The position numbers and the translations under genes were made by a program. A stretch of 40,567 nucleotides of DNA. It comes from a candidate division WOR-3 bacterium (lineage in GTDB: Bacteria; Hydrothermota; Tepidihabitantia; Tepidihabitantales; Tepidihabitantaceae). The notes below the pieces were generated by a model. The model was not told the origin of the DNA. It ran no database searches and saw nothing but the letters and a program-made list of their open reading frames with translations. The DNA lies in NCBI GenBank assembly GCA_016867815.1, contig VGIR01000018.1:1-40567 (forward strand), read 5' to 3'. Below, piece after piece: positions 7,847 through 39,880 of this stretch; positions within the stretch are counted from its first letter, which is position 1, and each line of letters begins with the position of its first letter.

Positions 7847-8710
7847 ATGAAGAGACTGCTGCTAGCCCTGATCCTGACCGCTGCCGCCGCCTTTGCCGGC
7901 GGCATCACAGGCCAGGTCGTAGATGCTGAGACCGGCGACCCGATTGCCGGGGCAGTCGTCGTCGCCAGGTCAGCGAGCGACGCCGGCCGGGCGCAGACGA
8001 ATGAACGCGGTGTCTACCGCATCACCGACCTCGAGCCGGGCAAGTACAGCGTTGCTGCCAAGGCTCGCGGGTATCTGCTTTCCCGCTACCCACGCCCGGT
8101 CCCGGTTCGCGCGACCGAGATGACCGATGGCATTGACTTCCGACTGGCGGGGAAGCGGGCCGGTGATGGCGCCATCTCCGGACGGGTTGTAGACCGACGG
8201 ACCGACGAGCCAATCCGTGGCGCGACAATTGTCGCGGTTGGCGGCGGCGCCAGGTACAAGGCAAGAACCGACGGTCGGGGTAGATACCTGCTCCGAGGAC
8301 TCAAGCCGGGCCGGTACAGCGTCACCGCCGGCGCCCGCGGCTATGTCAAGGAGTCGTACCCGCGGCCGGTGCCGGTCGTTGCCGGACGCGTGACCAAGGA
8401 CATCGATTTCGCGCTCGCTTCCCGGCAAAGGTCGGGCGCAATCACCGGCCGGGTAGTAGACGCCCGTACCCGTGAGCCGATTGCCGGCGCGGTCGTAGTC
8501 GCCCGGGGCGAGCACGGAAACGGACGCGCCCTGACCGACCGCCGCGGCCACTACGTTCTCAAGCTCAAGCCGGGCTCCTACCAGGTCGCTGCCCGCGCCC
8601 GCGGCTACGTGCCCGAGGCCTATCCGCGCCCGGTACCTGTCAAGCCCGGACGCGTGACCAAAGACATAGACTTCGCGCTGCGTCACAGTCAGGCCGGCCT
8701 GGCCGACTGA
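7847..8710 (+). CDS. Three carboxypeptidase-regulatory-like (CarboxypepD_reg) repeats, exported
   Basis: The start is ATG 7847 behind GGAGG (aaacggaggactgct); an upstream ATG at 7784 lies inside the promoter and is rejected. A signal peptide (MKRLLLALILTAAAAFAGG) precedes three tandem beta-sandwich repeats of about 90 residues. Each has the family pattern G.I.G.VVD..T.EPI.GA.V.A......T..RG.Y....LKPG.Y.V.A.ARGY. Each repeat then continues with an added YPRPVPV segment and a DIDFAL/DIDFRL strand that are conserved among the three copies. Such domains usually serve as surface or periplasmic binding or structural modules. There is no catalytic domain. The sigma54-type promoter at 7779 links it to the kinase/regulator system at 2.6-5.2 kb. 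Confidence 0.85.
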   Translation: MKRLLLALILTAAAAFAGGITGQVVDAETGDPIAGAVVVARSASDAGRAQTNERGVYRITDLEPGKYSVAAKARGYLLSRYPRPVPVRATEMTDGIDFRLAGKRAGDGAISGRVVDRRTDEPIRGATIVAVGGGARYKARTDGRGRYLLRGLKPGRYSVTAGARGYVKESYPRPVPVVAGRVTKDIDFALASRQRSGAITGRVVDARTREPIAGAVVVARGEHGNGRALTDRRGHYVLKLKPGSYQVAARARGYVPEAYPRPVPVKPGRVTKDIDFALRHSQAGLAD

Positions 8711-9647: not shown

Positions 9648-10465
9648 CCGATGCGGCCCGAGACGTAGTCGTCGGTGCGCTTGTCCCTGGGGGTAGTGAA
9701 CATCTGCGCCGCCTCGCCCTCTTCGACGAGCTCGCCGGAGAGGAAGAAGGCGACGCGGTCCGAGACCCGGGCCGCCTGCTTGACGTTGTTAGTTACCAGC
9801 ACCCAGGTGAAACGGCTCTTCAGTTCACGCATCGCGTTCTCTATCTGGGCAGTTGATATCGGATCGAGCCCGGAGGTCGGCTCGTCCATCATGATCACCT
9901 CGGGGTTGACCGCAATGGTGCGGGCGATACAGAGACGCTGTTGCTGGCCGCCCGACAGACGAAGCGCAGAGGTCTGAAGTCGGTCCTTGACTTCGTCCCA
10001 GAGAGCGGCGGCGCGCAGGCTCTGTTCGACCAGGTCGGCGAGTTGCGACTTGTGCGGTCGGGCCTTGAGGCGCGGGCCATAGGCGATGTTGTCATAGATG
10101 GTGCCGGGCAGTGGGACCGGGGTCGCGAAAATTAGCCCGACCCGGCGGCGCAGAGCGTCGATGTTAATCCGGCGCACTTCCTCGCCGTCGAGCAGGACGT
10201 CGCCGGAACGGAGGAACTCGCGCTGGGTTTCAATCATGCGGTTGATGACGCGCAGGAGAGTGGTCTTGCCACTGTGGGCCGGCCCGATGACCGAGACGAT
10301 GGAGTTCGCCGCGATGGTAAGGTCTACTCCTTTGAGTATCAGGCGCTTGTTCACCGCCACCGCGAGGTTGTTTATGGAGACTTTGGAGGCAGGCTGAGGT
10401 CGAGGTTCAAGTTGAGACGCGGAGCTCTCAGGAGCAGGTTGAGGTCGAGGTTGAGTTTGAGGCAT
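9644..10465 (-). CDS. pstB: Phosphate ABC transporter ATPase PstB, first copy (Q-loop and switch-His replaced)
   Basis: This 273-residue PstB has Walker [10 protein letters not shown] (61-69), a canonical signature LSGGQ (170-174) followed by QQRLCIAR, and Walker B VIMMDE (190-195). Two catalytic positions differ from the family. The Q-loop reads IFATP, with Ala114 in place of Gln. The switch reads VTNN, with Asn226 in place of His. Its own nucleotide site is therefore probably poorly hydrolytic, while its signature can complete the site of the paralogue. The first 27 residues, PRPQPAPE-rich, come from a CCTCAACCTCGA-type repeat; an AAGGA site sits 4 bases before the ATG, so this extension is probably translated. 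The gene follows pstA by 24 bases. Confidence 0.93.
10385..10465. repeat. Direct phrase-like repeat encoding the PstB1 N-terminus
   Basis: Two related copies on the plus strand, caggctgaggtcgaggttca (near 10391) and caggttgaggtcgaggttga (near 10436), are separated by about 25 bases. On the coding strand this is a CAACCTCGACCTCAGCCTG-type unit, read as QPRPQPA and EPRPQPA in the protein. Confidence 0.6.
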
Positions 10466-16519: not shown

Positions 16520-18316
16520 CTAGTGCCCTTCATACATCTTCTCGATTTGGCCGCGGAAGGCGGCGACAACCTGGGGGCGCCGCATCTTCAGGCTTGGGGT
16601 CAGGAGTCCGTTCTCGACTGTGAGCGGGTCCGGGACGAGCCAGAACCGGTGGACCTGCTCATACTGGGCAAAGCCCGCCAGCGCCTCCTTGATTTCTTTG
16701 TCGTATAGCTTGAGTACTTCAGGATGGTCGAGCACGTCGGTGTAGCGCTTGCAGGCGATGCCTCGCTCCCGGGCGAATCCTTCCAGTGCCAGCGGGCTCG
16801 GCACGACCAGCGCGGTGAGGAACGGTCTCTTGTCGCCGTAGACCATTACTTGTTCGACGTACTTGGACTGGGCGATGGCTTGCTCGATGGCGATCGGCGC
16901 GATGTTCTTGCCGTAGGAGCTGACTATCAGTTCCTTGATGCGGCCGGTGATGATGAGGTTGCCTTCCGCGTCGAACTTGCCCTGGTCGCCGGTATGGAAC
17001 CAGCCTTCGGTGTCGATGACCTCAGCGGTTTCTTTGGGCTTGTTCAGGTATCCCTTCATCACGTTGGGGCCGCGAATGAGGATCTCGTCGTTGGGCCCGA
17101 TGCGAACCTCGACGCCCTTGAGCGGCTTGCCGACCGTGCCGACTCGTTCCTGGCCGGGGACCGCGATACTGGCTGCGGGAGAGGTTTCGGTCAGGCCATA
17201 GCCCTCGAGCAGGTTGAACCCGAGGTTGCGGACGATGCGGGCCAGCCTCCGGTCGAGCGGCGCGCTGCCTGAGACCAGCAGCCTGAGCCGGCCCCCGCCC
17301 AGCGCCGTCAGCTTTCTGACGACCAGCCGGCCAAGGAGCCAGTGTCTGAACCTGAGCCAGAGGGAGAGCGGGTGGCCGCCGGCACGGAGCCGGGCGTAGC
17401 GGCTGTACGTGCGGAGGGTCGAGACCATCAGTGCCCGGCGGAGTGCCGAGCCGGATTCGACCTTTTCCCGAACCGCGTTGTAGACCTTTTCCAGCACCCG
17501 CGGCACGACTATCATCACGGTCGGACGAGCGAGCTGGACATCTTCGCGGATGGTCTGGACCGATTCGGCATAGGCAATCGAGCCGCCCGCCATCAGTACG
17601 CAGTAGTAACCGCCGGTGCGCTCGAACATGTGGCACAGGGGCAGGAAGGAAACCAGCACGTCGTTCTCGTTGATGCCGAACAGCGGAATCAGGGCCTGGA
17701 CGTTGGAGAGGATGTTGCGGTGGGTGAGCATCGCGCCCTTTGGCTCGCCGGTCGTTCCCGAGGTGTAGCAGACCGTGAACAGGTCGTCCGGTTCGGGCTT
17801 GTGCGGATCGGCAAGCTTCGGGTTCTGCTTCAACGCCTCGGCGCCGGACTTGCGCAACTCGTCGAAGTTGAGCAGTTGCTTGCCCGCCTGGCTCTTGGAT
17901 TTTTGGCCGTAGACCGTGACCACATCCTGCAGCGGGGCGACCTCGGGCAGAATCCGCGTGATGTTGGCCAGAAGTTCCGGGCTCTCGACGATCAGGTGCG
18001 TCACCCCAGCGTCGTTCAGGATGTAGCGAATCGCATCCGCGCCGAGCGTGTGGTAGACCGGAATCAGTATGGCCCCGAGCTTGGCGACGGCGAGATCGGT
18101 TGCGACCCATTCCGGCCGGTTGTAGGAATAGATGCCCACCATGGAACCGGGCCTGACTCCGCGTTCGGCCAGACCCGCGGCCAGTTCGTCGACAGTCCGC
18201 GAGAGATCCGCATAGCCGATCCCCTGGTACTTCCCTTCGACCTTCCGCATCAGGGCGGTGCGGTCCGCGAACTTCTTCGCTACTTCAGCGAAACAGGCGT
18301 AGACGGTGTCAGGCAT
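16520..18316 (-). CDS. Long-chain acyl-CoA synthetase (AMP-forming)
   Basis: This 598-residue ANL-superfamily enzyme activates fatty acids as acyl-AMP and then acyl-CoA. It shows the P-loop YTSGTTGEPKG, the PLCHMFERTGG substrate-tunnel region, GYGLTE, the GWFHTGD hinge region and GRIKELIVSSYGKNIAP. Length and the ERTGGYY segment fit the FadD15/Faa-like long-chain branch. The start ATG 18316 has an AAGGGAG site 6 bases upstream. It lies downstream of an alpha-oxoamine synthase gene on the same strand, which suggests that its acyl-CoA product could feed that enzyme. A palindromic repeat (18337-18436) lies between them. Confidence 0.93.
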   Translation of the reverse strand: MPDTVYACFAEVAKKFADRTALMRKVEGKYQGIGYADLSRTVDELAAGLAERGVRPGSMVGIYSYNRPEWVATDLAVAKLGAILIPVYHTLGADAIRYILNDAGVTHLIVESPELLANITRILPEVAPLQDVVTVYGQKSKSQAGKQLLNFDELRKSGAEALKQNPKLADPHKPEPDDLFTVCYTSGTTGEPKGAMLTHRNILSNVQALIPLFGINENDVLVSFLPLCHMFERTGGYYCVLMAGGSIAYAESVQTIREDVQLARPTVMIVVPRVLEKVYNAVREKVESGSALRRALMVSTLRTYSRYARLRAGGHPLSLWLRFRHWLLGRLVVRKLTALGGGRLRLLVSGSAPLDRRLARIVRNLGFNLLEGYGLTETSPAASIAVPGQERVGTVGKPLKGVEVRIGPNDEILIRGPNVMKGYLNKPKETAEVIDTEGWFHTGDQGKFDAEGNLIITGRIKELIVSSYGKNIAPIAIEQAIAQSKYVEQVMVYGDKRPFLTALVVPSPLALEGFARERGIACKRYTDVLDHPEVLKLYDKEIKEALAGFAQYEQVHRFWLVPDPLTVENGLLTPSLKMRRPQVVAAFRGQIEKMYEGH

Positions 18317-25529: not shown

Positions 25530-28500
25530 CTAGCGGACGATGGCCACGCGCCGGGACAGGGTCTGGTCGCCGGACGTCATCCGCAGATAGTAGACACCGG
25601 CCGGCATTGACCGCAGGTCGAGCCGGAACGGCGAAGGTCTCTGTTCGAATGTCGAATGGACCAGACGACCCTGAGCATCGTAGACGCGCAGAGACGAGGG
25701 CCCGGAAAGGGGAGTGGAGAACCGGATATTGACTGCGTTCGTTGCCGGGTTGGGGTAGGCTTCCAGTCTGTAGCTTGAGGCCTGCGGCTTGGGGTCGGGT
25801 TCGGCTACGCCCACGTTCGCGTCATACCAGTCCTGGGCGCGCTGGCAGGCGTCGAGGTAGGTCGCCGAATCACCGGCCGCCACGAACGCGAGGGCGACGC
25901 GCCGGTCCCCGCCCTGCGGCAGGCCCAGCGGGCCGGTGGAAACCGCGATCGACCAGTTGTAGGGGCGGTCAGAGCCTTGTGTGCCGAGCGAGCCGGTCAT
26001 GATGCGGTACTTCATGTCGTTGCTCAAACCGGAGTCGGAGTCAACGTAGCGGCCGTGGTCGATGCAGGCGAGCCTGGCGGCTGCTTCATGGGTCAGGAGT
26101 TTCACTCCGCACCAGCGGTTCCGGGATAGGACGTTGCGCATGAAGGCGGTGGCCTGGCCGGCGTCGGTGAAGGCGACGTCATGCAGCCGGTCCGTGGCAA
26201 CGACGTCGAAGTCGGCAAGGATGCCGGCGTGGGCGGTGACCGCCTCGCCGCCCCCGTTGTGCACGTCATAGACCATGATTACCCAGTCATTGTTCCCGGG
26301 GTCATCTACTCCCAGAGCGTGCTGCTGGACCGTGACGTTGTGGGCGTTGGAGTGACCGGCGTCGTTGAAGGCGGACGTCATGTACTCGTCGGCGTTCCAC
26401 ATCGGGGCGCGGGAGCGGACGCTGTCCACCAGCCGCCAGTCGCTGTCATACCCGCTATCCAGGTTGTAGAAACGGTCGGCGACGTACTCCGGGCACCCAA
26501 CAAGACAGAAGCTCGCGGCTCTCAGACTCGACGTATCGTTCTGCGGGAAGCGGAATCCCCGGCCCCTGCAACCACCCTCGCGGTCGTAGCCGGCGGTGCC
26601 GCGGGCAGTGATGGTCAGCGCGACCTGACCGGTGTCGATGTCGGCGCAGGTCCGGCCCGGATAGCCAAGCACGACTTCGAATTCGAAGTCCCAATTCGAA
26701 CCGCCGCCGGCGACACGGGCGAGAAATCGCAGGCCTGAGCCGGGTTCGGCGTCCGGCGCGGCCGCGATGCTGAGGCTGGGCGTTGTCGCGGAGTCCCCGG
26801 CAGCAATGTTGCCATAGTCCGCGGTCGAATCCAGCACCGAGCCCCGCCCGCCCGTGATCTGCAGCACCACGCTCGCGTCGTCGGCATCGCCGCTGCCCGT
26901 GTTGGCAACGGTGAGAACCAGGTTCGCGGTCTCTCCCGGTTCGAGGATGCCGTTGGGATTGGACTGGTTTGCGTCGTCTATCCGGCTGCGGCGGTACGTC
27001 ACGTACGGTTCCGGCACGCCGGCCTTGACGACTACGTCCCTGGTCCCGGCCAGCTGGTTGTGACCGGTGGCGGTCAGCTTCAGTGTGCCGACCGTGACCG
27101 GGTGGATTGCCAGCGAGACCTGGCCCGAGCCATCGGTCTGTCCGGTGGCGAATACCTCGCCGCCTTTCCAGGCGCACACGCGCGCGCCCGCGAATCCCGG
27201 CGTCACTGTGACCGAGAGATTCTGCCCGCCGGTTGATATCGTGTCGGCAGCCGAGACCGCAAGCTGGCCCGGCGCTTCAGTCCAGATGTCGATGGCCGGG
27301 TCGCCGAGCAGGTTGAACTCGGTCATACACCAGCGCCAGAGGGAGTTGTTCTGGGCCGGGCCCGCGTACTCCTCGCGCGACCGGCTGTGGGCCGTGCCGA
27401 TGACGTACTCCTGCGAATGGAAAAGGTGGTCGTAGAACCGGATGCAGAGCTTTTCCGACGGGCCCATCGAAGGCGGCGTGCCCCAGCCGTAGCGCGAGTT
27501 CATCATCACGGCGATGCAGCCCGCCGAGTCACAGTTGAGCGCGATTTCGGCGAGGCAGTCCTCGGCTTCGAAGTTGCCCGGCGTGCAGGCCAGAGAAGTC
27601 ATGATGCTGTAGCGCCGGCGATTGCGCTGCTGCGAGGCGCTGCTGCTCAGGTAGATGGGCGTGCCATTCTCGTCATAGACACCGCCCTCGTTGCCGTGGC
27701 CGGCCGGGTCGAACAAAGCGAAACCGTTATCGAACGAATCCCGCACGACGCCGGCGCCGGGCGGGTTCTCCAGCTTGACGTCGGTCCAGCCGGACGGGGT
27801 GAGGTTGGCGATGGAGTCGTTCACGAACTTGCCGTGGTAGCCGATGTTGTACCAGAGCCAGCCGGAAGGCAGCAAGTTCCGCTTGATGTAGTCGGTGGCC
27901 GGGTTCCCCTCATAAGTCTTCACCTTGGCGATGAAGTTCCGGACCTGGGAGGCGCGGTCGACCGGGGCCCGGCCGGTTATGACATCGGCATAGAAGTCGA
28001 CCGAGTCGGACATCTCGCCGAACAGGTCATTGTCGTTTGAGTCCCACGAATAGTCGAGGTCGCCGAAGTAGAGGTCGGTCGGGATGTCGCCGGTTTCATC
28101 ACCGACGCTGACGCGGATGCGGCGCGACGGCACTTGCGCGTTGTCTCCGGCCAGCAGCACGTACGACAGACCGCGGTGCTCGAAGAAGTTACGGATGCAA
28201 TTGCGGGTCTTTTCTTGCAGGTCCCGGCCTTCGTAGTTGCGGCCGATCCACTCCTTGGTGCGGATCTCTGCCCGCAGGCCGCGGCTGCTCCGGTAGTCGG
28301 CAAACGGCACGAACTCGGGAGCGAGGGCGTCGTTCGTGATGATGAGGTAGTTGATCTCCGGCAGACCGGCCTTGGCCGCCAGCGGCGAGAACCGCTCCAG
28401 GTCTTCGGGGTTCTGCACCAGCGAGCGCAACCCGGCAAGGGCCCGGTCGTGCTGCGACGGCGTCAGGGTCGTTCTGTCCGCACCTTCCACATAGTCCACC

Positions 28501-28994
28501 TTCACCATTAGCTGCGTGTGCAGCGAGAGCAATCCCGACCGGGGCCGCAACGAGAACGGCGACACCCGGACCGCGACCACCCGGAACCCGGCGGCGGAGC
28601 CGGAGTGATACCCAAGCAGGATGCCGGCCGGGAAGGGTGTGTTGGAAGCATAGACTTGCGCGTCCGGAGGAACCCAGGCCGCGGCCTGCTTCGAAAGGGG
28701 ATAGGGAGGCTGGGCCGGCACGACGTTGTAGACGCCCAGTTCGGTCACGGCCAGCGGCGTGACGGAAACGCCGGTCACCTGCGCGTTCGCGGGAATGGCG
28801 AGCGTAACCGCTACCTCGGGCAGCGACGGCTTGCCCGGGTCGGGCGACAGGGCTCCCTGGGGGAGTTCGACCACATCGAACCCGTTGAGCGACGAGAACC
28901 GGACAGCGCCCGGGCTCGTGTTCAGCGTATGAATCACGGTTTCGGCAAGCAAAAGGGCCGGCACAAAGGCGAATAGAATCAGAGCTCTCTTCAA
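25530..28994 (-). CDS. C25-family (gingipain-like) cysteine peptidase with C-terminal sorting-like domain
   Basis: The start is TTG 28994 with GGAGG 4 bases upstream; the longer ATG frame from 29090 lacks a signal peptide at its N-terminus. The 1154-residue protein has a signal peptide (LKRALILFAFVPALLLAE) and a propeptide-like domain (to about 185). The C25 caspase-like domain (about 210-590) has catalytic His433 (DPAGHGNEGG) and Cys470 (MTSLACTPGNFE). Ig-like domains follow (LSVTVTPGFAGARVCAWKGG; ILEPGETANLVLTVANTGSG), then a long beta-rich region. The C-terminus is a sorting-like domain (LEAYPNPATNAVNIRFSTPL to SRRVAIVR). Such proteins are secreted, and the tail matches the type A sorting / FlgD-like fold used by type IX secretion. 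Confidence 0.9.
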   Translation of the reverse strand: MKRALILFAFVPALLLAETVIHTLNTSPGAVRFSSLNGFDVVELPQGALSPDPGKPSLPEVAVTLAIPANAQVTGVSVTPLAVTELGVYNVVPAQPPYPLSKQAAAWVPPDAQVYASNTPFPAGILLGYHSGSAAGFRVVAVRVSPFSLRPRSGLLSLHTQLMVKVDYVEGADRTTLTPSQHDRALAGLRSLVQNPEDLERFSPLAAKAGLPEINYLIITNDALAPEFVPFADYRSSRGLRAEIRTKEWIGRNYEGRDLQEKTRNCIRNFFEHRGLSYVLLAGDNAQVPSRRIRVSVGDETGDIPTDLYFGDLDYSWDSNDNDLFGEMSDSVDFYADVITGRAPVDRASQVRNFIAKVKTYEGNPATDYIKRNLLPSGWLWYNIGYHGKFVNDSIANLTPSGWTDVKLENPPGAGVVRDSFDNGFALFDPAGHGNEGGVYDENGTPIYLSSSASQQRNRRRYSIMTSLACTPGNFEAEDCLAEIALNCDSAGCIAVMMNSRYGWGTPPSMGPSEKLCIRFYDHLFHSQEYVIGTAHSRSREEYAGPAQNNSLWRWCMTEFNLLGDPAIDIWTEAPGQLAVSAADTISTGGQNLSVTVTPGFAGARVCAWKGGEVFATGQTDGSGQVSLAIHPVTVGTLKLTATGHNQLAGTRDVVVKAGVPEPYVTYRRSRIDDANQSNPNGILEPGETANLVLTVANTGSGDADDASVVLQITGGRGSVLDSTADYGNIAAGDSATTPSLSIAAAPDAEPGSGLRFLARVAGGGSNWDFEFEVVLGYPGRTCADIDTGQVALTITARGTAGYDREGGCRGRGFRFPQNDTSSLRAASFCLVGCPEYVADRFYNLDSGYDSDWRLVDSVRSRAPMWNADEYMTSAFNDAGHSNAHNVTVQQHALGVDDPGNNDWVIMVYDVHNGGGEAVTAHAGILADFDVVATDRLHDVAFTDAGQATAFMRNVLSRNRWCGVKLLTHEAAARLACIDHGRYVDSDSGLSNDMKYRIMTGSLGTQGSDRPYNWSIAVSTGPLGLPQGGDRRVALAFVAAGDSATYLDACQRAQDWYDANVGVAEPDPKPQASSYRLEAYPNPATNAVNIRFSTPLSGPSSLRVYDAQGRLVHSTFEQRPSPFRLDLRSMPAGVYYLRMTSGDQTLSRRVAIVR

Positions 28995-29000
28995 GAATCC

Positions 29001-29060
29001 TCCGAAGTCAGTTGTTTCCAGGTCAATTGTAGATTGTATATATCCCGGCCAACGAGCGCA
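29001..29060 (-). promoter_or_regulatory. AT-rich promoter-like segment upstream of the peptidase
   Basis: On the minus strand the stretch TATATACAATCTACAATTGA lies upstream of the GGAGG site, in otherwise GC-rich DNA. It offers two TACAAT-like -10 hexamers but no convincing -35. Confidence 0.3.
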
Positions 29061-29188
29061 AGAAGAAAACCGGCTCACCGACTCGTGCACGCTACGCTCA
29101 GCGCTCCGCCACGCGTCCCGGTCGGATTCTCACGGAGACAGGCTGCAGGCCCGGAAAGCGGCCGGGGAGAACGGTCCCGGGCCCGGAG

Positions 29189-30544
29189 CTAGCGTGCCTG
29201 CGGCGACCGGTGAGCGTTGGTCAGCCGCCCCAACCTATGCCAGTAGCGGTGGCAGGAGTAGAAGAGCGCGGACGCGCTCATGTTAAGATGGCCGTAGATG
29301 TAGGTGAGGGGGTTGAGGCCGTGGACCCCAAGAGCAGGGGCGTGTCCGGGCCTGGTCAGCGGGCTGAATTCGGCGACCAGGGTCTCATATGCGGCCGCTG
29401 TCGCATCCACCACCCGGGTCCAGTCCATCTGTGCAACGCGATCCGTTGCCTGGCGGCAAAGCCGGTCATACCGGGCCTGGGGCAAGCTGCAGACCCGCTC
29501 GACACAGCGGGCGAACTCGGCAGGCGGCGTCTCTCTGGGCAGTCTTCGGCCCACAGCGTCGTCAACCAGTTCGTCAACTGTCTCGTTGGCGAGACCGATA
29601 ACCGGCGTTCCCGAGGCAAGCGCCTCGATTACGGTCAGGGACTGGACTTCCAGCCGGGAGGCCGAGACGAAGGCGTGGGTATCAGCCAGGCACGCCGGTA
29701 TCGCAGACTGGTCCAGCTGGCCGAGGAACTCGACGTTGTTCAGACCGTGCTCGGAGGCGAAGCGGCGCAGTCTTCTCTCGTAGCCCGGGACAAGCGTCTT
29801 GCCGACCAACCGCAAGCGGTAGTCCGGCGGCAGGTGCGCAAGCATCTCCAGCAGGTACATCTGGTTCTTGCGTTCGGAGAGGAAGCCGATGAAGCAGAGA
29901 TTGCGTGCCCTGCCGTCCATGTCGGCAAAGCGGCCGGTGCGGAAACGCGCCAGGTCGCGGCCGTTCGAGATAGGGAAGACCCGGGCCCGGAGCGGGTACT
30001 CGCGCAGCGCCCGGATTACCGAGTCGTTGATGGCTACGATGCCGTCGCAGTCAGCGAGGAAGCGGCTGATGTAGGAGTGAACTACGGGCTGCACCAGCCG
30101 GCGGGCTCGGAACCCCGGCAGCTCACAGGCGCCGAACTCGAGGATCCGGTTGGGAAGACCGTGAAGGGTTATGACAAACGGGATCGAGTGGCCAAGCGCG
30201 TAGTACTGGGCTATCGCCCCTAGCATTATCGGGTCGTGGCTGTGGACTATTTCCGGTCGGAACTCGTCCAGCCAGGCGATGGTCCTGTTGCAGGTGGAGC
30301 GGTCGAGCGACGGGTAGTAGACCTGGTCGGGCCCGGCGCTGGCCACGGTCAGTACCTTCACGCCGCGGCTATTCGTCGCCAGCGCGGTTCTCTCACCCGG
30401 GCAGAGCAGGAGGACCTCGCAACGCTCGGCCAGATGCCGCGTCAGTTCGTGCGCCACAATACCTCCGCCTCCGCCGGAGTTCTCCGGGAAAATCGAAGCA
30501 ACTGCGACGCGCCTACCGCAACTGCGCAAGGCGCTATCTTCCAT
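29189..30544 (-). CDS. GT4-family glycosyltransferase
   Basis: This 451-residue GT-B enzyme has an N-terminal Rossmann half with the glycine-rich acceptor loop FPENSGGGGGIVAHELTRHL and HSHDPIMLGAIAQYY. The C-terminal donor-binding half has FIGFLSERKNQMYLLEMLAH, RLVGKTLVPGYERRL and the EX7E motif in RLEVQSLTVIEALASGTPVI. It is likely cytoplasmic and builds an exopolysaccharide, lipopolysaccharide or glycolipid; donor and acceptor are unknown. The C-terminal extension after residue 400 is unusual and ends RLTNAHRSPQAR. The ATG at 30544 has no obvious Shine-Dalgarno, and it lies 12 bases after the short chimeric ORF at 30557. Confidence 0.88.
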   Translation of the reverse strand: MEDSALRSCGRRVAVASIFPENSGGGGGIVAHELTRHLAERCEVLLLCPGERTALATNSRGVKVLTVASAGPDQVYYPSLDRSTCNRTIAWLDEFRPEIVHSHDPIMLGAIAQYYALGHSIPFVITLHGLPNRILEFGACELPGFRARRLVQPVVHSYISRFLADCDGIVAINDSVIRALREYPLRARVFPISNGRDLARFRTGRFADMDGRARNLCFIGFLSERKNQMYLLEMLAHLPPDYRLRLVGKTLVPGYERRLRRFASEHGLNNVEFLGQLDQSAIPACLADTHAFVSASRLEVQSLTVIEALASGTPVIGLANETVDELVDDAVGRRLPRETPPAEFARCVERVCSLPQARYDRLCRQATDRVAQMDWTRVVDATAAAYETLVAEFSPLTRPGHAPALGVHGLNPLTYIYGHLNMSASALFYSCHRYWHRLGRLTNAHRSPQAR

Positions 30545-30556: not shown

Positions 30557-30796
30557 TCACCAGGGAGTGTTCCCGGCTTTCGTTCCGTGCGGCCAGTACT
30601 GCAGCGACACACCGAAGCCGAACTCGGGGCCGCGGTATTCGTCGACATTGTCGAATCGGCTCAGGTGCAGTTCCGGCACTACGCGGAGCTTGTCGCCCAC
30701 CGACGCGCCGACGAAGATCTCGGTCTCAAGCCACTGGGCAGTGGCGGAGACACACAGCAGGCTGCGTATGGCCGGTAGTACGAACTTGAGTTTCAC
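30557..30796 (-). pseudogene. Chimeric short ORF: duplicated signal peptide plus barrel-like tail
   Basis: The start is GTG 30796 behind GGAGG. The first 27 or so residues (VKLKFVLPAIRSLLCVSATA followed by QWLETEI) are nearly identical to the start of the 788-residue propeller protein at 39725, because the DNA belongs to a 237-bp duplication. At residue 28 the two diverge completely. This ORF continues for only 52 residues (VGDKLRVVPELHLSRFDNVD then GPEFGFGVSLQYWP), which look like the last strands of an outer-membrane barrel. It is likely the remnant of a recombination between two genes that shared a 5' cassette. It could still be a small exported protein. Confidence 0.6.
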
Positions 30797-30951
30797 GCAA
30801 CCTCCTATTATTGCATGACCTAGCTGCGCCAATCTTGCCGCAAGCCGGGCCGCTTGTCAAGCCCATCCGGCTGGCCACTTCTCAGCCTCGCGCCATGGTG
30901 TCGACGCCTTCCGGGCACAAGTGCCGGGCAGTGCCGCTGACCGCCTGCGGT
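30715..30951. repeat. 237-bp direct duplication, copy 1
   Basis: This segment matches 39644-39880 with 7 mismatches and no gaps, same orientation, offset 8929. On the minus strand it holds the region upstream of a gene, its GGAGG ribosome site, GTG start and signal-peptide codons. The right edge of the match falls in a perfect hairpin (CTGACCGC-CT-GCGGTCAG, 30937-30954). Confidence 0.9.
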
Positions 30952-31488
30952 CAGCAGGATACTGGCAGCCATAGCGCTCTGCACAAGTGCGCATCTCATT
31001 TTTCCGGTCCTCACGGCTATTCAGGCCGGCCAGTGGACGCCATGCCCGGCGTTCGCCCTGTCCTCGCGTTCGATGTGGCTGAGGTCGATTGTCGGCATGC
31101 ACGGCTTCTCTCCCCGCCGGAGATGTTACGGTCTGCGTCTGGAACGGTCGTCATCGTTTCCGCCACCCCCGGCATTTCGGGCCTCCCGCTCCCGTCCGTC
31201 AACCGCGCGGTCGGTCGTTCCGCGCCGCGATCTTCTTCGAAACAGTCCAGATTCGTTCTCCTTCCCACTTCTTCCCAGGCGAGCCTACGTCACTGCCAGT
31301 TGTATCAGGTGGCTGGCGCGTGACACGCAGCGCCTGCCTTGGTCCGGTCGGGGCGAATCGCGCCGGGACGGCTGCGAGGTTCCCAGAGATGGCAATCTAC
31401 CGACCTGCAGCACAACCATGGTCTGCATGGTACGCCGGCTTCGTGGTTCGAGTTCACAACAGGTCGTCTGCCCTCAGGCCCATGGCTG
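30952..31488. other. Gene-poor stretch
   Basis: No ORF has a ribosome site, domain or consistent codon pattern here. Overlapping plus-strand frames at 31073-31705 are Arg/Ser/Pro-rich shadows that run into the opposite strand of the PQQ-type gene. It may be decayed sequence. Confidence 0.5.
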
Positions 31489-32637
31489 CTACTTCCCGGC
31501 CCGTCCGGTGTGCGCGCGGTCGTGCTGGTACATCGGCCACTGGCCGCCGCCGCCCGTGCTCGAAACGGAGAATGCGGAGACGCCCCGGTTATGGCGCGAG
31601 ACTAGCAGGGCGTTGTTCGGGCCAAGGCAGGGGTCGCTCTCGGCTCCTCCTTCTTCCGAGTACTCCCAGAGCTTCCTGCCTTCCGGACTGAACGCCACGA
31701 TGTGATACTCTTGTTCAGTCCACCAGCCGCCCGTGTTTCCGGCAAAGTACACGTTGCCGTCTGCCCCGATGACGCACGAACCGGCGGGTGCGGGGTAGTT
31801 GTGGCGCTGCCAGTGGAGGGTGCCGTCTTGATTCAGGCAAAAGAGCGTATCCAGTCCGTCACCGAGGTATATCATCCCGGATCCATCAATCACCGGCGGA
31901 TTGTCAAGGCTGATGCTCACCGGGCTCACCCACCTCTCCGTTCCGTCCGGGTTGAGCGCTACGACCGGCCCGCTGAAGCAATGCATGTAGATGACCCCGT
32001 CTTCGCCGATCGCCATCGGGCCGGATTCTCTGACACCTGGGACCGAGTAGCGCCAGCGCACCGATCCATCCGGGCCGATCGCCAGGCAACCTACGACCGT
32101 TGTCACGTAGATAGTACCGTCGGCTCCCAGCACGGGAGGCTCGCGCAATTCACTTCCCGTCGGGCAACGCCACCGGATGCCACCATCCGGATTGACCGCG
32201 ACCATCGAACTGCACCCCGGCACGTACACCGTGCCGTCACCTCCCAGCGCCGGAGCGAGATCCTGAAACCGCCACGGCTGGCCAGTGTCGACGACACACT
32301 CCCATACCTTCTGGCCGCTCAACGGGTCGAGCGCTGCCAGTCGAACGAGCTCCTCGTACTTGACCTCGTAGATGCGACTGCTCGAGGCGATCGCCAGCGC
32401 GCCACTATTGCCGCTCCCCGGAATGCTGCACTTGATTGCGCCGGTCGAGTCCAACCCCCAGATGCCGTCACCCGTGGAGACGTATATCATGCCGTCCGGC
32501 GCTACAGCAGGCGTGTGCATGTTTCTGGACCCTATCTCCGTCTGCCAGCGAAGGTGGGCCCGCCCCGGATCGAACAGAGCGCACCCAGAAAGCAGGACAC
32601 CGGCTATGGCGAGCGGTACGATTGCGGCATTCCTCAT
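31489..32637 (-). CDS. PQQ-like beta-propeller lipoprotein
   Basis: The start is ATG 32637 with GGAGG just upstream; a longer frame from 32826 adds only Arg/Gly-rich residues. The 382-residue product has a signal peptide and lipobox (VLLSGC). It then has at least seven repeats of the PQQ/quinoprotein type, with the core pattern PVLGADGTIYV...G...A..PDG..RWRY (for example APALGGDGTVYVPGCSSMVA; PMAIGEDGVIYMHCFSGPVV; PVIDGSGMIYLGDGLDTLFC). It ends with MYQHDRAHTGRAGK, a common tail of outer-membrane PQQ-repeat proteins. No PQQ-binding catalytic residues are evident, so it is probably a structural or binding propeller like BamB rather than a dehydrogenase. Confidence 0.85.
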   Translation of the reverse strand: MRNAAIVPLAIAGVLLSGCALFDPGRAHLRWQTEIGSRNMHTPAVAPDGMIYVSTGDGIWGLDSTGAIKCSIPGSGNSGALAIASSSRIYEVKYEELVRLAALDPLSGQKVWECVVDTGQPWRFQDLAPALGGDGTVYVPGCSSMVAVNPDGGIRWRCPTGSELREPPVLGADGTIYVTTVVGCLAIGPDGSVRWRYSVPGVRESGPMAIGEDGVIYMHCFSGPVVALNPDGTERWVSPVSISLDNPPVIDGSGMIYLGDGLDTLFCLNQDGTLHWQRHNYPAPAGSCVIGADGNVYFAGNTGGWWTEQEYHIVAFSPEGRKLWEYSEEGGAESDPCLGPNNALLVSRHNRGVSAFSVSSTGGGGQWPMYQHDRAHTGRAGK

Positions 32638-32992
32638 CCGACCTCCACTCTCCTTGGCCTGATCAGCGGCGAGCTGGCGAGCCACTGCGTCGGGTTCCAC
32701 TCGAGCGGCCCTTCGGCCTTCGACGGCCGTGTCCGGGAGCACCCGACCTTGCCCGGGCATCTGTCCAGGCCTGCCGGCTCCGCCCGGCCGCTCCGCTCCT
32801 CTCTGTCGTTTCGCGTTCCCTCGCACCCGGTTCCCGTTTCCTGTTTCATCATTGCTCCTTCATCTCCTCGTACTTCTCTTCTGTAACCGGACTCTCCATT
32901 CCGACATCTCATCCGTCTCTTCTCCCCGCATCCGGAGCCGCACCACCCGCTGCATCGCGTCCCTGGTGTCCAACTTCTTCATGGTTCTGTTC
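32638..32992. other. Intergenic region with pyrimidine-rich phrase repeat
   Basis: The plus strand is strongly C/T-rich from about 32800 to 32940 (for example cccggttcccgtttcctgtt). Loosely repeated TTCC/GTTTC units resemble the other phrase-like intergenic repeats. No gene is seen. Confidence 0.45.
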
Positions 32993-34270
32993 CTACCGTC
33001 TCAGCCTGTGGTACGCATATCCAATTGCGGTCAGGCCTACGTCCAGGAACCAGAAGACCAGGGCCGCAGTCCGCAAGCCGGGAGCCGGCCGCAGGGCCCG
33101 GTTCGGTCCGCTCTCGCCCGCGGCCTCGATGGTCCTGCCCTTCCAGGTCGCGTGCCCGGTGGAGAGCATGACGACCGAGCGCACGGCAACAAACAGTGCG
33201 AGGCTGACCGTCGCCGGGTAGAGGAAGGCGAGGTAGGACGGCACGCCGAAGCGCCGGCCGGACAGCAGCAAGAAGCAGAGCGGCACCGCGATGCCGGCCA
33301 GTGCCAGGGGCAGCTGGGAAGGCGCGAGCGCGATACCGAGCCCGGCGAGCACGAGCACTGCAGGCGGCAGGAAGAACAGCAGCACGATCCCGGCCCACGC
33401 CAGGGCAAAAGGCGCCAGCGCGCGGTCGAACGCGGCGAATACGCCCTTGGTGAATCCTTCGACGACGCCGGCCCAGTTCTTGTACATCCGGCAGGTTACG
33501 AATCGGTGGGCGTCGCAGAAGCACCAGTTCAGGCCGTGCGCCACCACCCGGGCCGCGAAGGCGCGGTCGTCGAGTACCTCGCCCCGAACCGAGGCGTACC
33601 CGCCTATCCAGTCATAGGCCTGCCGGCGGAAGAGCATGAACTGCCCGTTGGCGGCGGATATCGGGAGGTGCAGCCGGCGGCAGAGTTCGAAAGGAATGGT
33701 GCAGAACACGTGGTGGATGCTGTAGAAAGGCACGACCAGGCGTTCGCCCCAGGTGCGTATCTCCTGGCCGACGATTGCGGACACGAATTCGAGCCGGCCG
33801 GGCAAAGCTGCGTCCATGGCGGCCCGCAGCGCGCCCGGCGCGTGTACCGTATCGGCGTCGGTGAAGAGGATCCAGTCACCGGACGTCTCCTCGGACAGCT
33901 GCTGACACGCCCAGTTCTTGCCTACCCATCCGGGCGGGCGCGGCAGCCCGGAAAGCACGCGGACGCGGGAGTCGCGGCGGGCGAATTGGGCCAGGATCTG
34001 CGCGGTCCGGTCGGTCGAATTGTCGTCCAGCACGACGACTTCGAAGTCGGGATAGTCCTGAGCCAGGAGCGACGGGATGAGGCGCGGCAAGTTCTCCTCC
34101 TCATTGCGGGCCGGGACGAGGATAGAGACGCGCGGATAGTGCGGTTGAGACGGGTACCTGCCCAGACGCGGCATGGTCAGCAGGTTGCCGAGGCAGACGG
34201 CGAGCACATAGAAGGCCAGCGCCAGCGCCACCCACTGGAGCACGGCGAGGTGTGTCATCAACTCCATCAT
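32993..34270 (-). CDS. GT2-family membrane glycosyltransferase (HpnB/CrtQ-like)
   Basis: This 425-residue protein has an N-terminal membrane helix. The GT-A catalytic domain has VSILVPARNEEENL, the VVLDDNSTDRT and FTDADTVHAPGALRA (metal-binding DAD) motifs, and LDDRAFAARVVAHG as the later acidic motif. Four to five C-terminal membrane helices follow. The arrangement matches hopene-associated HpnB and carotenoid CrtQ-like glycosyltransferases, which modify membrane lipids; the acceptor here is not known and no hopanoid or carotenoid genes are adjacent. A second ATG codon follows the first. There is no clear ribosome site. Confidence 0.85.
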   Translation of the reverse strand: MMELMTHLAVLQWVALALAFYVLAVCLGNLLTMPRLGRYPSQPHYPRVSILVPARNEEENLPRLIPSLLAQDYPDFEVVVLDDNSTDRTAQILAQFARRDSRVRVLSGLPRPPGWVGKNWACQQLSEETSGDWILFTDADTVHAPGALRAAMDAALPGRLEFVSAIVGQEIRTWGERLVVPFYSIHHVFCTIPFELCRRLHLPISAANGQFMLFRRQAYDWIGGYASVRGEVLDDRAFAARVVAHGLNWCFCDAHRFVTCRMYKNWAGVVEGFTKGVFAAFDRALAPFALAWAGIVLLFFLPPAVLVLAGLGIALAPSQLPLALAGIAVPLCFLLLSGRRFGVPSYLAFLYPATVSLALFVAVRSVVMLSTGHATWKGRTIEAAGESGPNRALRPAPGLRTAALVFWFLDVGLTAIGYAYHRLRR

Positions 34271-35480
34271 GGCTGACCATATGCACTGATGGTGCCATCA
34301 AGTGACATGGCGCAGATGCGAGACTTAGTGGCAGGCCGGGGCAATGAAGCGTCTCTCCTTGGTCACAGGGCGTCACCGGGCGGATACAGATGTCTGTGTC
34401 GTCGGAGAGTCCCTCGTCCATCTTCGATCCTCGGCCGCAGCAGCCCCTGCGGGACGATACTCCCGCCGTCCTGTCCTTCCTGATTCTTGTGTCCTTGTGG
34501 TTGGACTTCGCGTCCTCGCAGCTTCCCTGACGCCCTGGGTAGTATCGGTCAGGGCAGCTCATCGAGTAGCTCGACCGGTTGCGGTGCGAGTGAAACGGCG
34601 GGCAGTATGGGCGGCAACCCGGCAATCTCCGGTCCGAACGACCGGGTAAGATCCGGACAGGGTTCCTCAACGAATTGCGGCCGGGACTGTCCGCAGGATG
34701 AAGGACCAGGGACTCCCCGAGACGATTCGGCGGACCGCAATCCAACGTATCCCTGGATCTATCTCGGGGGCTACCCCCCGAGCAGTCCCGGGGGCGGCGG
34801 GGGGCAGGCCCTCCAGAAAGAGGCTTCGAGATTGAGGATACGGGAGTTGTGGCGGTTTTGCGCGGACTTGGCCTAAACTGCAGAGATGCAGCACTGCCGC
34901 CGACGGGCCGCAAGTGATGGATGCAAGCACGCCGCTTTTCTGGTCGCCACTCGCCAACCTCTCGCTTCTGCCTTCGGTTCCTCCGCCACGCGATCCCCAG
35001 ATCGCCTGATTTCTTTGCGCCGCACTTCTGCATTCCGATCTCTGAACCGACCGACACCTGGACCTTTGTGTCTTGGTGTCTTTGTGGTGAGAATCCCCTC
35101 CGCGCCTGCCTTCCTTGTCTTCTCTCCGTTTTCTGGCAGACTGTGTCGTGGATACCAGGGGGGACACCGAGCTTGTCCAATGGCTCGAATTTCGCATCCG
35201 CGAGCTACCACAGATTGGACTCGTGCCAGACAACAGGTACAACTGACTGTGGCGCATCTATGCTACTGGCCAGTCCTGAGACAAGCTCTACCTCTCCGTA
35301 TGGACTAAGAAGCGCTTCAAGGTGTCTCGGGACTTGCCCCAATCCCGACCACCTAGGGCATTTCGGACTCTAGATCCCAGATCCAAGATCCGCCTTCGGC
35401 ATCCGGCCATCCAGTTTGACACGCAGCGGCTAGGGTCAGATTGGGCTCAAGGTGGAGACGCCGTGCAGGCGCGAGCCGGG
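34271..35480. other. 1.2-kb gene-poor region with repeat fragments
   Basis: No confident gene. It contains phrase-like repeats (gattcttgtgtccttgtggt near 34481; ctttgtgtcttggtgtcttt near 35060; ctagatcccagatccaagat near 35370) and an 8-bp GC hairpin at 34763-34782. One short plus-strand reading, 35148-35246 (GTG start, TELVQWLEFRIRELPQIGLV in the middle), looks protein-like over 32 codons but has no start signals. It may be a relic of a lost gene. Confidence 0.5.
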
Positions 35481-36152
35481 CTAGGCAGGCTGGTCCGGTA
35501 GGGGCTGGATGCAGCGGTCCGTGTCGTAGTTGGGGTTGTTGACCCAGCGGTCGACGCGGTAGGCTTCCATCAGGTCCGGCTTGAACTGGCGGAGGAGGGC
35601 GCCGTAGTCTTTGTTCTCCGGGTCGAGCCAGGCATCCCAGTCGTCGCGGGCGATGATGACCGGCATCCGTCCGTTGATGTGCTCGAGCAGTTTGTTGGCC
35701 GAGGTCGTGAGGACGACGCCGGTGGCAAGGCTGCGGCCATCGTGCTCCCACATCTCGTGCATGCCCGCGATGGCGAACGGCGACGCGTCTTTCATGCGGA
35801 TGAACCACGGCTGTTTGAGGTGGTCTGTGGGCTGCCAATCGTAGTATCCGTCCGCGGGCACGAGCATCCGGTTGTGCGCGATGGCGTGGCGGAACGCGGG
35901 TTTGGTCGCGGCGGTTTCAGCCCGGGCGTTGACCAGCTTCTTGCCGATGGTCTCGTCTTTGGCCCACGAGGGCACGAGTCCCCAGCGCAGGCGCAGGACG
36001 GTACGGCTGCGGCTCGCCCGGTCGAGCGCGACGGCCTCGACCTCGGTCTGGGGGGCGATGTTGTAGCGGCGTTTGAACCCGATGCCCATGGAGACGCCGA
36101 AGAGGTCGGAGAGTTTGTCCGGCGGGGAGAAGAGGGCTATGCGTCCGCACAC
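35481..36152 (-). CDS. SRAP-domain protein (YedK/HMCES family) with Asp at the catalytic Glu position
   Basis: This 223-residue protein captures abasic sites in single-stranded DNA by a covalent thiazolidine link through Cys2, which is exposed after Met removal. It starts MCGRIALF, and has LRWGLVPSWAKD, NARAET with Asn75, RMLVPADGYYDW, and EHINGRMPVII with His158. At residue 105, where YedK has the catalytic Glu in its ADGWFEW-type motif, this protein has Asp (ADGYYDW). The rest of the active site is intact. It is a single gene without SOS-box or partner genes that I can see. Confidence 0.93.
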   Translation of the reverse strand: MCGRIALFSPPDKLSDLFGVSMGIGFKRRYNIAPQTEVEAVALDRASRSRTVLRLRWGLVPSWAKDETIGKKLVNARAETAATKPAFRHAIAHNRMLVPADGYYDWQPTDHLKQPWFIRMKDASPFAIAGMHEMWEHDGRSLATGVVLTTSANKLLEHINGRMPVIIARDDWDAWLDPENKDYGALLRQFKPDLMEAYRVDRWVNNPNYDTDRCIQPLPDQPA

Positions 36153-36272
36153 GGCTCAGCGCCCCATGCGGAACCGCAGTCCGGACCGGCCATTCACGCA
36201 GCCAGTATAGCGCCGGAACCGCGCGAAGTCATCCGACTCACGCCGGCCGTCTTACACGCCTGCACGTTTCGG

Positions 36273-36301
36273 ATTGAACCGAGCCGTGGTCATGATAGAC
36301 T
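36273..36301 (+). promoter_or_regulatory. Possible sigma70-like promoter
   Basis: TTGAAC (36274-36279), a 16-base spacer and TAGACT (36296-36301), about 80 bases before the ATG at 36381. The -10 match is weak. Confidence 0.3.
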
Positions 36302-36380
36302 CCAGCCTGATAGAGTATGCGTGTAGCAGTATCGCTTTCGATGGTCGCGGATGCTCCACGTCCGCCGTCAATGATGGAGA

Positions 36381-37229
36381 ATGCAGATAGTGACTCGCAC
36401 GGACCCCGGAATGCCTGACGACATTGCCCTCGCGGCCACCTGGCACCCAAGGGGTGAGACGCAGCGCCTCGCCCGAGCGTGGAGGAGAATCAGCGAGACA
36501 TTTCGCGCCGTGTCGATAGTCGTGCCTTCGGATGTGCACAGCGCTCAACTCGCCGATCAGGTCGGGGCGGTTCGGCAGCAGATCTCTTCCGCACCGAATT
36601 GGAGCAGGGGGCGCTACGAGGCTCTGCGCCTGGCTGTCGCCAGCGGCGCCTCGGCCATCGAGTATGTTGATATGGACCATCTGCTCAGGTGGATAGAGAC
36701 AAGACCGGACGAGTTGCATAGGGTGACCGAGACGGCGGCTCATACTCCTTTCGTTGTGATCGGTAGATCAGAGCAAGCGTACTCGACGTACCCGCTCGCG
36801 ATAAGGGAGACCGAGCGACCGATCAACAGCCTCTTCTCTCACATTTTCGGACAGGAGATGGACCTTTGTGCCGCGACGCGCCGCATGAGCCGGGACATTG
36901 CCGGCATGTTGCTGCGGGAAAGCAGTAGCGATGCTACCTTCGGCGTTGATACCGAGTGGCCGGCCATCGCGTTCCGGCGCGGAGTCAAACTCGAGTACGT
37001 CGAAGTCGATGGTCTGGACTGGGAATCTGCCGATCAGTATCAAGATACCGCGGCTGACGCTGCCCGGCAGTCGCGACTGGCGGCGCTGTACGATCGCGAC
37101 CCAGAGAAGTGGTCGTTCCGGGTCAGGGCGGCGGAGGGCATGATTCGGGCGGGCCTCACCGCACTCGGGAGATGTCGCTGCGACGAGCCAAATCCGCAAT
37201 GTCACCCCGACGCAGCGGGCGGCTACTAG
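36381..37229 (+). CDS. Uncharacterised protein with a DxD motif (possible GT-A-like)
   Basis: This 282-residue cytoplasmic-type protein has no signal peptide. It opens MQIVTRTDPGMPDDIALAAT, and has alternating strand/helix segments (FRAVSIVVPSD; SAIEYVDMDHLLRWIE; TPFVVIGRS; GVDTEWPAIAFRRG; VKLEYVEVDGLDW). The DMD triad at the end of a strand, followed later by an acidic DTEWP segment, is the layout expected for GT-A nucleotide-sugar enzymes. However, I do not recognise the family and no nucleotide-binding signature is certain. The start is ATG 36381 with GGAG 5 bases upstream. It stands alone; neighbours on both sides are on the other strand. Confidence 0.6.
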   Translation: MQIVTRTDPGMPDDIALAATWHPRGETQRLARAWRRISETFRAVSIVVPSDVHSAQLADQVGAVRQQISSAPNWSRGRYEALRLAVASGASAIEYVDMDHLLRWIETRPDELHRVTETAAHTPFVVIGRSEQAYSTYPLAIRETERPINSLFSHIFGQEMDLCAATRRMSRDIAGMLLRESSSDATFGVDTEWPAIAFRRGVKLEYVEVDGLDWESADQYQDTAADAARQSRLAALYDRDPEKWSFRVRAAEGMIRAGLTALGRCRCDEPNPQCHPDAAGGY

Positions 37230-37358
37230 CACCAGGCTGCGAGCCAGCTGCCCGTCGGTAGCGTCGTTTTGTAGGTCGGCAGTAGTCCTGAACGCCGTCC
37301 CGCAAAGAGAAGGCTGCCGGCAGCGACGCGGGCAGCTCTTTCCCGACGAACACCGATT

Positions 37359-39725
37359 CTAGTCGGCTCGGACGATCTTGGTCACGGTCCCGGTCCGGCC
37401 ACCAGTGCGGGGCCGCACTTCGCAGACGAAGTACACGCCCGGCGCGAGGCGCGACACGTCGTTCGCGCCCGGACGTAGGTCGAGGACGCTGCGTCCGGTG
37501 ATGTCTAGCAGGAAGCTTGACGTCTCACGCTCGACGCCTGAAGCCAAAGGCAAGCGCAGCACGCCGCGGACGATGGTGGTGCCAAGGGGCGCGGGTCCCG
37601 TTCCCGACTGCGGCGCGCCTTCGATCCCGACCGGCACGCTGTCGCGGATGACCACAACGCTGCTTGAATAGAGGCCGGCGACGTAGATTCGGTTCTCGGC
37701 TGGGTTCCAGACCAGGTCGCTGGGTTCGGCGCCGACAGTGATGGTCGTGTCGATGGCGTTGGTCGCACCGTCGATGACCGTTACCGTCGTACCGCCACCG
37801 TTGGCGCAGTAGATCCGGTTGTTGATCGAGTCGTAGCAGAGAGACTGGGGCAGATAGCCGACAGTCAGGGTCGTGTCTGTCTGCTTGGTCGCGCAGTCAA
37901 TGACCGTGACTTTGCTGTCGGCCCGGTTGGCGCTGTAGATCTTGTTGTCCTGCGGATTGTAGCACAGGCACCAGGGCTCGGCGCCGAGCGCAATCGTCGT
38001 CTCCACGGCATTGGTAGCCCCATCGATGACGGTTATGCTGTTGCCGTATTGGTTGGCGCAGTAGACGTCTCTCGAGCCGGTGCTGTAGCAGACCGCGACC
38101 GGGCTGCTGCCGACCGCGACGACCGTGTCGACGTGATTCGTCGCGCCGTTGATCACGACCACGTTGTTGCCGTAGGTAGAGGCGTAGATCTTGTTGTGCT
38201 CGGGGTTGTAGCAGAGGCTGTTCGGCACGACGCCGGCCGGCACGACCGTGTCCACGGTGTTGGTCGCGCCGTCGATGATCGCCACCGTCGAGGCTGCCAT
38301 GTTGGCGATGTAGACCTTGTTTTCCGCCGGGTTGACACAGGAAGCGTGCGGGGCGTTGCCGGTGGACAGTTTGGCGATGACCGTATTGGTCACGCCGCTG
38401 ATGACCGCCACCGAGTCCGAGTACTCGTTGGAGCAATAGACGTTGTCGTTCGCCGGGTTCCAGCAGAGCGCGCGCGGGCCGTAGCCGGGATTGATGTTGG
38501 CGACGACGCGGTTGGTCGCCGCGTCGATCACGGCCACGGTGCTCCAGTTCTCGTCCGCGGCGTAGACCTTGTCACGCTGGGCGTTGTAGCAGAGCGCCTG
38601 CGGATAGGCCTGGACTACTGCCCTGGCAACCACCGCATTCGACGCGCCGTCGACAACCGCCACCGCTCCCTCGCCGTAGTTGGCGCTGAACACGCGGTTG
38701 CACTCCGGGCTGTAGCAGACGGCCTGGGGCATGCTGCCGACGTCCACAGTCGCCACCACGCCATTGGTCGTACCGTCGATTACCGTCAGCGTCGCGGTCG
38801 TGCTGTTCGCGCAGTAGACCTTGTTGTTCTTGGAGTTGTAGCAGAGCGCGGCAGCGCCGTTGCCGGCAGCCACCGTGGTGATCCGCTGGTTGGTGGCGCC
38901 GTCGATGATGGTGACGTTGGCGCTCGAGAAGTTGGCGCAGTAGACCTTGTTGTCGTTGGGGTTGTAGCCGAGCGCCCAGGGATTGGTCCCCGCGCTCACG
39001 GTCGCGATCACCGCGTTCGTTCCGCCGTCGATGACCGTCACGTTGCTACTGCCCTGGTTCGCGGAGTAGAGCTTGTGGTCCTGCGAGTTGTAACAGAGGG
39101 CAAACGGCTTGTCGCCCACCGGGACGCTGGCGACGACCGTGTTGCTCGTTCCGCTGATGACCGAGATGGTGTCGCGCCCGAAGTTGGCGCAGTACACCGT
39201 GTTGCCGTAAGGGTTGTAGCAGAGTGCGTAGGGCATGTCTTTGACCGCGACCGTGGCCAGCACCGAGTCGGTGGCGCCGTCGATGACGGTCACGTTGTCG
39301 CTCGAGGCGTTGGCGCAGTAGACCTTATTGTCGGTTGGGTTGTAGCAGAGCGCAAACGGTTCGTTGCCGACGGCGATCGTGGCGACCGGCTGGTTGGTGG
39401 AACCGTTGATGACCGTCACGCTGTCGCTGGTCTGGTTCGCGGCGTAGATCTTGTGGTTCTGCGTGTTGACGCAGAGCGCCTGCACGTCGATTCCGGCGGG
39501 GATGCGGGCGATCCGTTGGCTGGTCGAGCAGTCGACTGCGATTACGCACCTTCCGGCTACGCCGCCTACGTAGCAGGCGTCCGACACCGAGTCGTAGACG
39601 ATCGACTGCGGGTAGACCATGCCTCCGAGCGAATCGGGCAGCCAGATCTCTGTCTCAAGCCACTGGGCAGTGGCGGAGACACACAGCAGGCTGCAGATGG
39701 CCAGTAGTACGAACTTGAGTTTCAC
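37359..39725 (-). CDS. YncE/YVTN-type beta-propeller protein, 16 repeats, sorting-like C-terminus
   Basis: The start is GTG 39725 behind GGAGG; the ATG frame from 39761 adds 12 residues from the duplicated 5' segment. The 788-residue product has a signal peptide (VKLKFVLLAICSLLCVSATA). It then has 16 tandem repeats of about 42 residues with the pattern ALCYNP..NKVYCAN..S..VTVIDGATN.V..T..VG.EP. The first and last are degenerate, which fits two propellers of 7-8 blades. A C-terminal domain (FLLDITGRSVLDLRPGANDV, then RLAPGVYFVCEV) looks like a type A sorting / FlgD-like tail, as on the C25 peptidase. It is likely secreted or surface-bound; ligand unknown. Confidence 0.9.
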   Translation of the reverse strand: MKLKFVLLAICSLLCVSATAQWLETEIWLPDSLGGMVYPQSIVYDSVSDACYVGGVAGRCVIAVDCSTSQRIARIPAGIDVQALCVNTQNHKIYAANQTSDSVTVINGSTNQPVATIAVGNEPFALCYNPTDNKVYCANASSDNVTVIDGATDSVLATVAVKDMPYALCYNPYGNTVYCANFGRDTISVISGTSNTVVASVPVGDKPFALCYNSQDHKLYSANQGSSNVTVIDGGTNAVIATVSAGTNPWALGYNPNDNKVYCANFSSANVTIIDGATNQRITTVAAGNGAAALCYNSKNNKVYCANSTTATLTVIDGTTNGVVATVDVGSMPQAVCYSPECNRVFSANYGEGAVAVVDGASNAVVARAVVQAYPQALCYNAQRDKVYAADENWSTVAVIDAATNRVVANINPGYGPRALCWNPANDNVYCSNEYSDSVAVISGVTNTVIAKLSTGNAPHASCVNPAENKVYIANMAASTVAIIDGATNTVDTVVPAGVVPNSLCYNPEHNKIYASTYGNNVVVINGATNHVDTVVAVGSSPVAVCYSTGSRDVYCANQYGNSITVIDGATNAVETTIALGAEPWCLCYNPQDNKIYSANRADSKVTVIDCATKQTDTTLTVGYLPQSLCYDSINNRIYCANGGGTTVTVIDGATNAIDTTITVGAEPSDLVWNPAENRIYVAGLYSSSVVVIRDSVPVGIEGAPQSGTGPAPLGTTIVRGVLRLPLASGVERETSSFLLDITGRSVLDLRPGANDVSRLAPGVYFVCEVRPRTGGRTGTVTKIVRAD
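37680..39640. repeat. About 126-bp tandem coding repeats of the propeller gene
   Basis: The 42-codon repeat is visible in DNA as recurring segments such as gttggcgcagtagaccttgt and gccgtcgatgac on the plus strand. Copies have drifted and are not identical, so this is protein-level repetition rather than a CRISPR array. Confidence 0.8.
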
Positions 39726-39880
39726 GCAACCTCCTATTATTGCATGACCTAGCTGCGCCAATCTTGCCGCAAGCCGGGCCGCTTGTCAAGCCCATCCGGC
39801 TGGCCGCTTCTCAGCCTCGCGTCATGGTGTCGACGCCTTCCGGGCACTAGTGCCGGGCAGTGCCGCTGACCGCCTGCGGT
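39644..39880. repeat. 237-bp direct duplication, copy 2
   Basis: This matches 30715-30951 (7 mismatches, no gaps). It contains the start, ribosome site and signal-peptide codons of the propeller gene. At the right edge the hairpin that is intact in copy 1 is cut after GCGGT; the following sequence leads into the transposase-bearing element. Confidence 0.9.

Follow-up and report, generated by a model that had tools for sequence, protein, structure and literature searches.

The window, that is the whole stretch of DNA that was analysed, is the complete contig C18 (40,567 bp) of an assembly of 215 contigs, which amounts to 3.37 Mb and is about 95% complete. It carries two copies of a 237-bp segment, denoted A and B, on the same strand and offset by 8929 bp (Table 1). 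The copies align without gaps and have the same base at 230 of the 237 positions (97.0%); the BLASTN E-value of A against B is 2.5e-111 with one genome searched, so the likeness is not due to chance. Both edges are abrupt, with the match falling to the background level within 10 bp in a per-10-bp identity profile. Common to the two copies are upstream DNA with a TTGACA motif, a GGAGG, a GTG start and 27 codons, which encode a signal peptide and the first mature residues, QWLETEI. The -10 match beside the putative -35 TTGACA is weak (CAAGAT). In copy A the segment forms the start of a gene for a 788-aa propeller protein, while in copy B, 8.9 kb away, it is joined in frame to a 52-residue tail. 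An earlier note on this DNA had described an ungapped, approximately 97% identical segment of 237 bp with GGAGG, GTG and signal peptide, which proved exact to the base; the sharp edges and the two fusions that it reported were likewise borne out.

Table 1. Features of the duplicated segment and its surroundings (positions in the window).
Feature	Position	Strand	Basis
Copy A: upstream region, RBS, GTG, signal peptide, first mature propeller codons	39644..39880	-	230/237 match to B
Copy B of the 237-bp segment	30715..30951	-	match to A
GTG start	copy B 30794..30796; copy A 39723-39725	-	sequence
GGAGG ribosome-binding site	copy B 30801..30805; copy A 39730-39734	-	sequence
Putative -35 TTGACA, same in both copies	copy B 30855..30860; copy A 39784-39789	-	
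788-aa YVTN/YncE-like beta-propeller with sorting-domain-like C-terminus (...SRLAPGVYFV...)	37359..39725	-	Pfam, NCBIfam
79-aa chimeric ORF: 27 residues of propeller start and 52-residue tail	30557..30796	-	in-frame translation
C-terminal remnant of barrel-like lipoprotein gene	30557..30714	-	39-40% identity to G003:C46 protein
Glycosyltransferase gene, starting 12 bp past the stop of the chimeric ORF	29189..30544	-	
Perfect 9-bp inverted repeat GCTGACCGC-AG-GCGGTCAGC holding the upstream edge of B	30936..30955	-	
IS fragment with transposase-like ORF, cut off by the contig end	39990..40567	-	93% identical copy G000:C6:59086-59662

Counted from the GTG, the seven differences between the copies lie at +75, +31, +30, +23, -81, -97 and -123. 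Four of them are coding, two synonymous and two not, which is too few for a selection test. The promoter/RBS stretch (30775-30876) is identical in A and B, and this may mean that some expression of copy B has been preserved; at ~102 bp it is the longest run free of differences, an unremarkable length given that, by our own estimate, the largest gap expected for seven differences in 237 bp is ~80 bp.

The gene headed by copy A is an ordinary member of the YVTN/YncE propellers, a many-copy family in this genus. Its product matches PF21783 (1e-34) in Pfam and TIGR02276 (2.5e-122, 14 repeats) in NCBIfam, and shows the repeated blades of ~42 residues characteristic of such propellers. The likeness of its C-terminus to a sorting domain was assigned by eye and from the DNA match of 37428-37498 to the ends of other genes. 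At the N-terminus, members of the family have a short signal peptide and, after it, a conserved mature motif, QWLETTIYLPDS. YVTN propellers are greatly expanded in the genus, with 85 matched stretches in this genome (G000) and 65-172 per genome in the five congeners G001-G005; their genes often stand in tandem arrays. Of such a protein, copy B has no propeller, just the signal peptide with the first few residues of the mature chain. The 5' part of B is, as read from its codons, derived from a propeller gene and not from the gene of its tail, because the copied codons include QWLETEI, the motif that marks the mature N-terminus of propellers.

The tail itself belongs to another family. With the C-terminal ~45 residues of a 218-aa protein encoded on G003:C46 it shares 39-40% identity, and in a comparison with the family of barrel-like lipoproteins to which that protein belongs, 42 aligned residues are 40% identical (E 2e-7, small set; E 3e-4 in the genome search). 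Full-length members are found in the congeners G003 and G004, and weaker ones are scattered through the class; in this genome the tail of B is the sole homologue recovered by the genome search. The family matches no Pfam or NCBIfam model, and its assignment as a barrel rests on the sequence pattern, with strand-like segments. In particular, the C-terminal strands of the ~215-aa proteins (L005, L023, L026, L027) align with the tail, whereas the full length of ~205-220 aa, the N-terminal lipobox of the lipoprotein signal and ~160 N-terminal residues are missing from B. A single-sequence AlphaFold prediction of the 79-aa chimera was of low confidence (pLDDT 55), with three strands predicted in the tail. 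The missing front of the barrel gene was found neither in six-frame translations of 30952-31500 nor in the genome search. Alignment of the tail is confined to residues 159-205 of the 218-aa protein, and no other member or upstream remnant is present in the genome; on this evidence the tail is the final quarter of a gene that has lost its front.

Residues of the signal peptide also differ between the two copies. In B, as compared with A, a leucine is replaced by proline and a cysteine by arginine in the hydrophobic core (h-region), and the maximum hydropathy is 3.10 for A but 1.97 for B. Charged residues are absent from the core in all 28 propeller signal peptides compared, that of A among them. 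The uninterrupted hydrophobic core that marks a working Sec signal peptide is, judged by hydropathy, absent from B (MKLKFVLPAIRSLLCVSATAQ). Because of the two core substitutions, the drop in hydropathy and the lack of charged cores among the 28 peptides, export of B is unlikely, and the 79-aa ORF probably does not yield a functional secreted protein.

The edges of the segment are of a kind that suggests a junction of microhomology size. The downstream junction lies at AGATCT, a word common to both copies. At the upstream edge of B, the left arm of the 9-bp inverted repeat is not kept in A, and the small palindrome is complete in B only. Short palindromes so close to the edge would suit a small mobile element of the MITE or REP type with a promoter in it, an explanation that is barely credible here. 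The segment exists in two copies only, with none related in the class; inspection of its edges by eye revealed no terminal inverted repeats or target-site duplication, so that the marks of a mobile insertion element (MITE/IS), namely TIR, TSD and multiple copies, are lacking; and its RNA folding is no better than that of shuffled sequences. An Rfam search of the segment returned no RNA family. The IS fragment at the contig end, whose transposase type was assigned by eye and which has no Pfam match, has a second related copy (79%) in C150. It was considered as the cause of the upstream break of A and set aside, since the IS begins at ~39990 and 110 bp of unrelated sequence lie between.

The earlier note had also proposed that the segment may serve to swap secreted proteins behind one expression and secretion cassette, and had called for a search of the whole genome for more copies. 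The search of the 3.37-Mb genome gave none beyond A and B, and there are no further copies in 60 relatives or in the other 64 of the 65 genomes of the class, with the exception of a 23-bp match (L003, G035:C4:449-471) to a propeller gene in another family of the class; these 23 identical bases lie at the AQWLE codons, the site of signal-peptide cleavage. It is possible that a near-identical third copy was collapsed in, or is absent from, the draft assembly. The fusion in frame, the copying of start signals and signal peptide as a single block, and the near-identical 3' ends that secreted genes elsewhere in the genome have in common would all agree with a functional cassette taking different secreted tails. 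However, the several copies with different intact cargo that such a cassette implies were not found: there are only two copies, the tail is a gene fragment rather than a complete cargo, the signal-peptide core of B is damaged, and 5' DNA is not generally shared within the family. This last point comes from codon identity (the same codon for the same amino acid, in a sample of longer propeller genes), which hardly differs along the gene: within genomes it is 0.60 at the N-terminus and 0.56 in the body, and between genomes 0.49 and 0.48. The 5' ends of propeller genes are therefore not generally exchanged. A few pairs have an N-terminal excess, such as G003_L039_-11851 and G002_L043_+4597, with 17/20 codons the same compared with 0.56 in the body. 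General sharing of 5' DNA by propeller paralogues was considered and rejected: the likeness of the DNA ahead of their start codons appears to stem largely from the gene before, whose 3' end in these tandem arrays encodes a sorting domain. We thus regard the proposed cassette as highly improbable.

The best explanation, to which we give a probability of roughly 0.7, is a single recent duplicative recombination that produced a chimeric ORF, most likely non-functional and becoming a pseudogene. One illegitimate recombination would have taken the start of the propeller gene (upstream DNA, RBS, GTG, signal-peptide codons and the first few codons of the mature protein) and copied it 8.9 kb away. There it is joined, across the short word AGATCT, to what is left of a gene for a barrel-like outer-membrane lipoprotein, namely its final 52 codons. 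The first three quarters of that gene are gone, and the reading frame happens to be intact, for which the odds are one in three. Of this account, the duplication with its edges, the truncation and the amino-acid differences are directly observed. That the duplication is recent and not old paralogy, as the earlier note had held, is supported by the 3% divergence, the sharp edges and the presence in B of a propeller N-terminus (AQWLETEI) before an unrelated barrel C-terminus. We infer that copying went from A to B, because B has the propeller-type mature N-terminus, and a single illegitimate recombination of microhomology size would be the simplest account of the segment. As to the order of events, a direct copy fits, and so does duplication of a longer part or the whole of the propeller gene followed by deletion; the locus as it was before the insertion was not found. 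The ORF is most likely non-functional because arginine and proline stand in the signal core and a tail of this length could not close a barrel, although the tail does keep an open frame.

Illegitimate recombination is known to duplicate promoters together with gene starts, with a chimeric gene or the capture of a promoter as the outcome. Here, likewise, a 5' region and coding start have been placed before another coding sequence, apparently in a single event with a microhomology-sized junction; in contrast with the known cases, what lies downstream is part of a gene, its front having been truncated, and any benefit is putative.

The main alternative to a non-functional chimera concerns the gene behind it and agrees with the preferred explanation as to origin. 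Under promoter capture, the gain from the duplication would be that the glycosyltransferase gene and those following it now have the propeller promoter ~250 bp ahead of them, with the 79-aa ORF as no more than a leader. The chimeric ORF ends 12 bp ahead of the glycosyltransferase start, the downstream genes are on the same strand, the region from the RBS to TTGACA is the same in A and B, and the G003 homologue of the glycosyltransferase, 69% identical, has a quite different upstream sequence; the copied promoter may therefore lie upstream of this gene. On the other hand, consensus scans found no full promoter in the copied upstream region, and the lack of differences in the promoter stretch is not significant. 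Our search of the literature on promoter capture and regulatory transfer turned up no directly relevant work. On balance promoter capture is unlikely, at about one chance in five by our judgement of these signals. Far less likely still is an artefact in which the assembler joined two loci through a repeat. The draft state of the assembly, with its 215 contigs, and the IS copy in which the window ends would allow for such an error, but seven sites distinguish the copies, the outermost of them within 8 bp and 33 bp of the two edges, so that B does not consist of re-used reads of A; moreover, a typical short read would exceed the longest stretch free of differences, ~102 bp.

The locus is of interest mainly as a compact and clear illustration of the way in which chimeric genes, and new settings for promoters, originate in a genome rich in secreted propeller paralogues. 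The wider consequence would be little, unless the glycosyltransferase proves to be under the copied promoter or the sharing of 3' ends proves to be part of the same process. These 3' ends are a better place than the 237-bp segment for the study of end-sharing in the lineage. Secreted genes of G000 have in common 3' patches of DNA that are 88-97% identical, with sharp edges and, in several cases, unrelated bodies; the patches encode the C-terminal sorting-domain-like end, and one such end has 42 matched places genome-wide. In the tandem array L037 (G000:C6:23000-42000), patches are found at 2035-2250, 4651-4800, 8299-8365, 9890-10147 and 17897-18154, which looks like patchy recombination or conversion among the sorting domains. 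A broader scheme, in which the ends of secreted genes would be exchangeable both at 5', as here, and at 3', with the bodies reshuffled by recombination between common start and end modules, is very improbable.

Beside the duplicated segment there are two long stretches without convincing genes, at 30952-31488 and 34270-35480; only 38 bp of the first are matched elsewhere in the genus. Further along the window, positions 25530-29090 (reverse strand) encode a 1186-aa peptidase C25 (gingipain-type) protein with a Por secretion-tail sorting domain, which suggests a type IX-like secretion route in the lineage.
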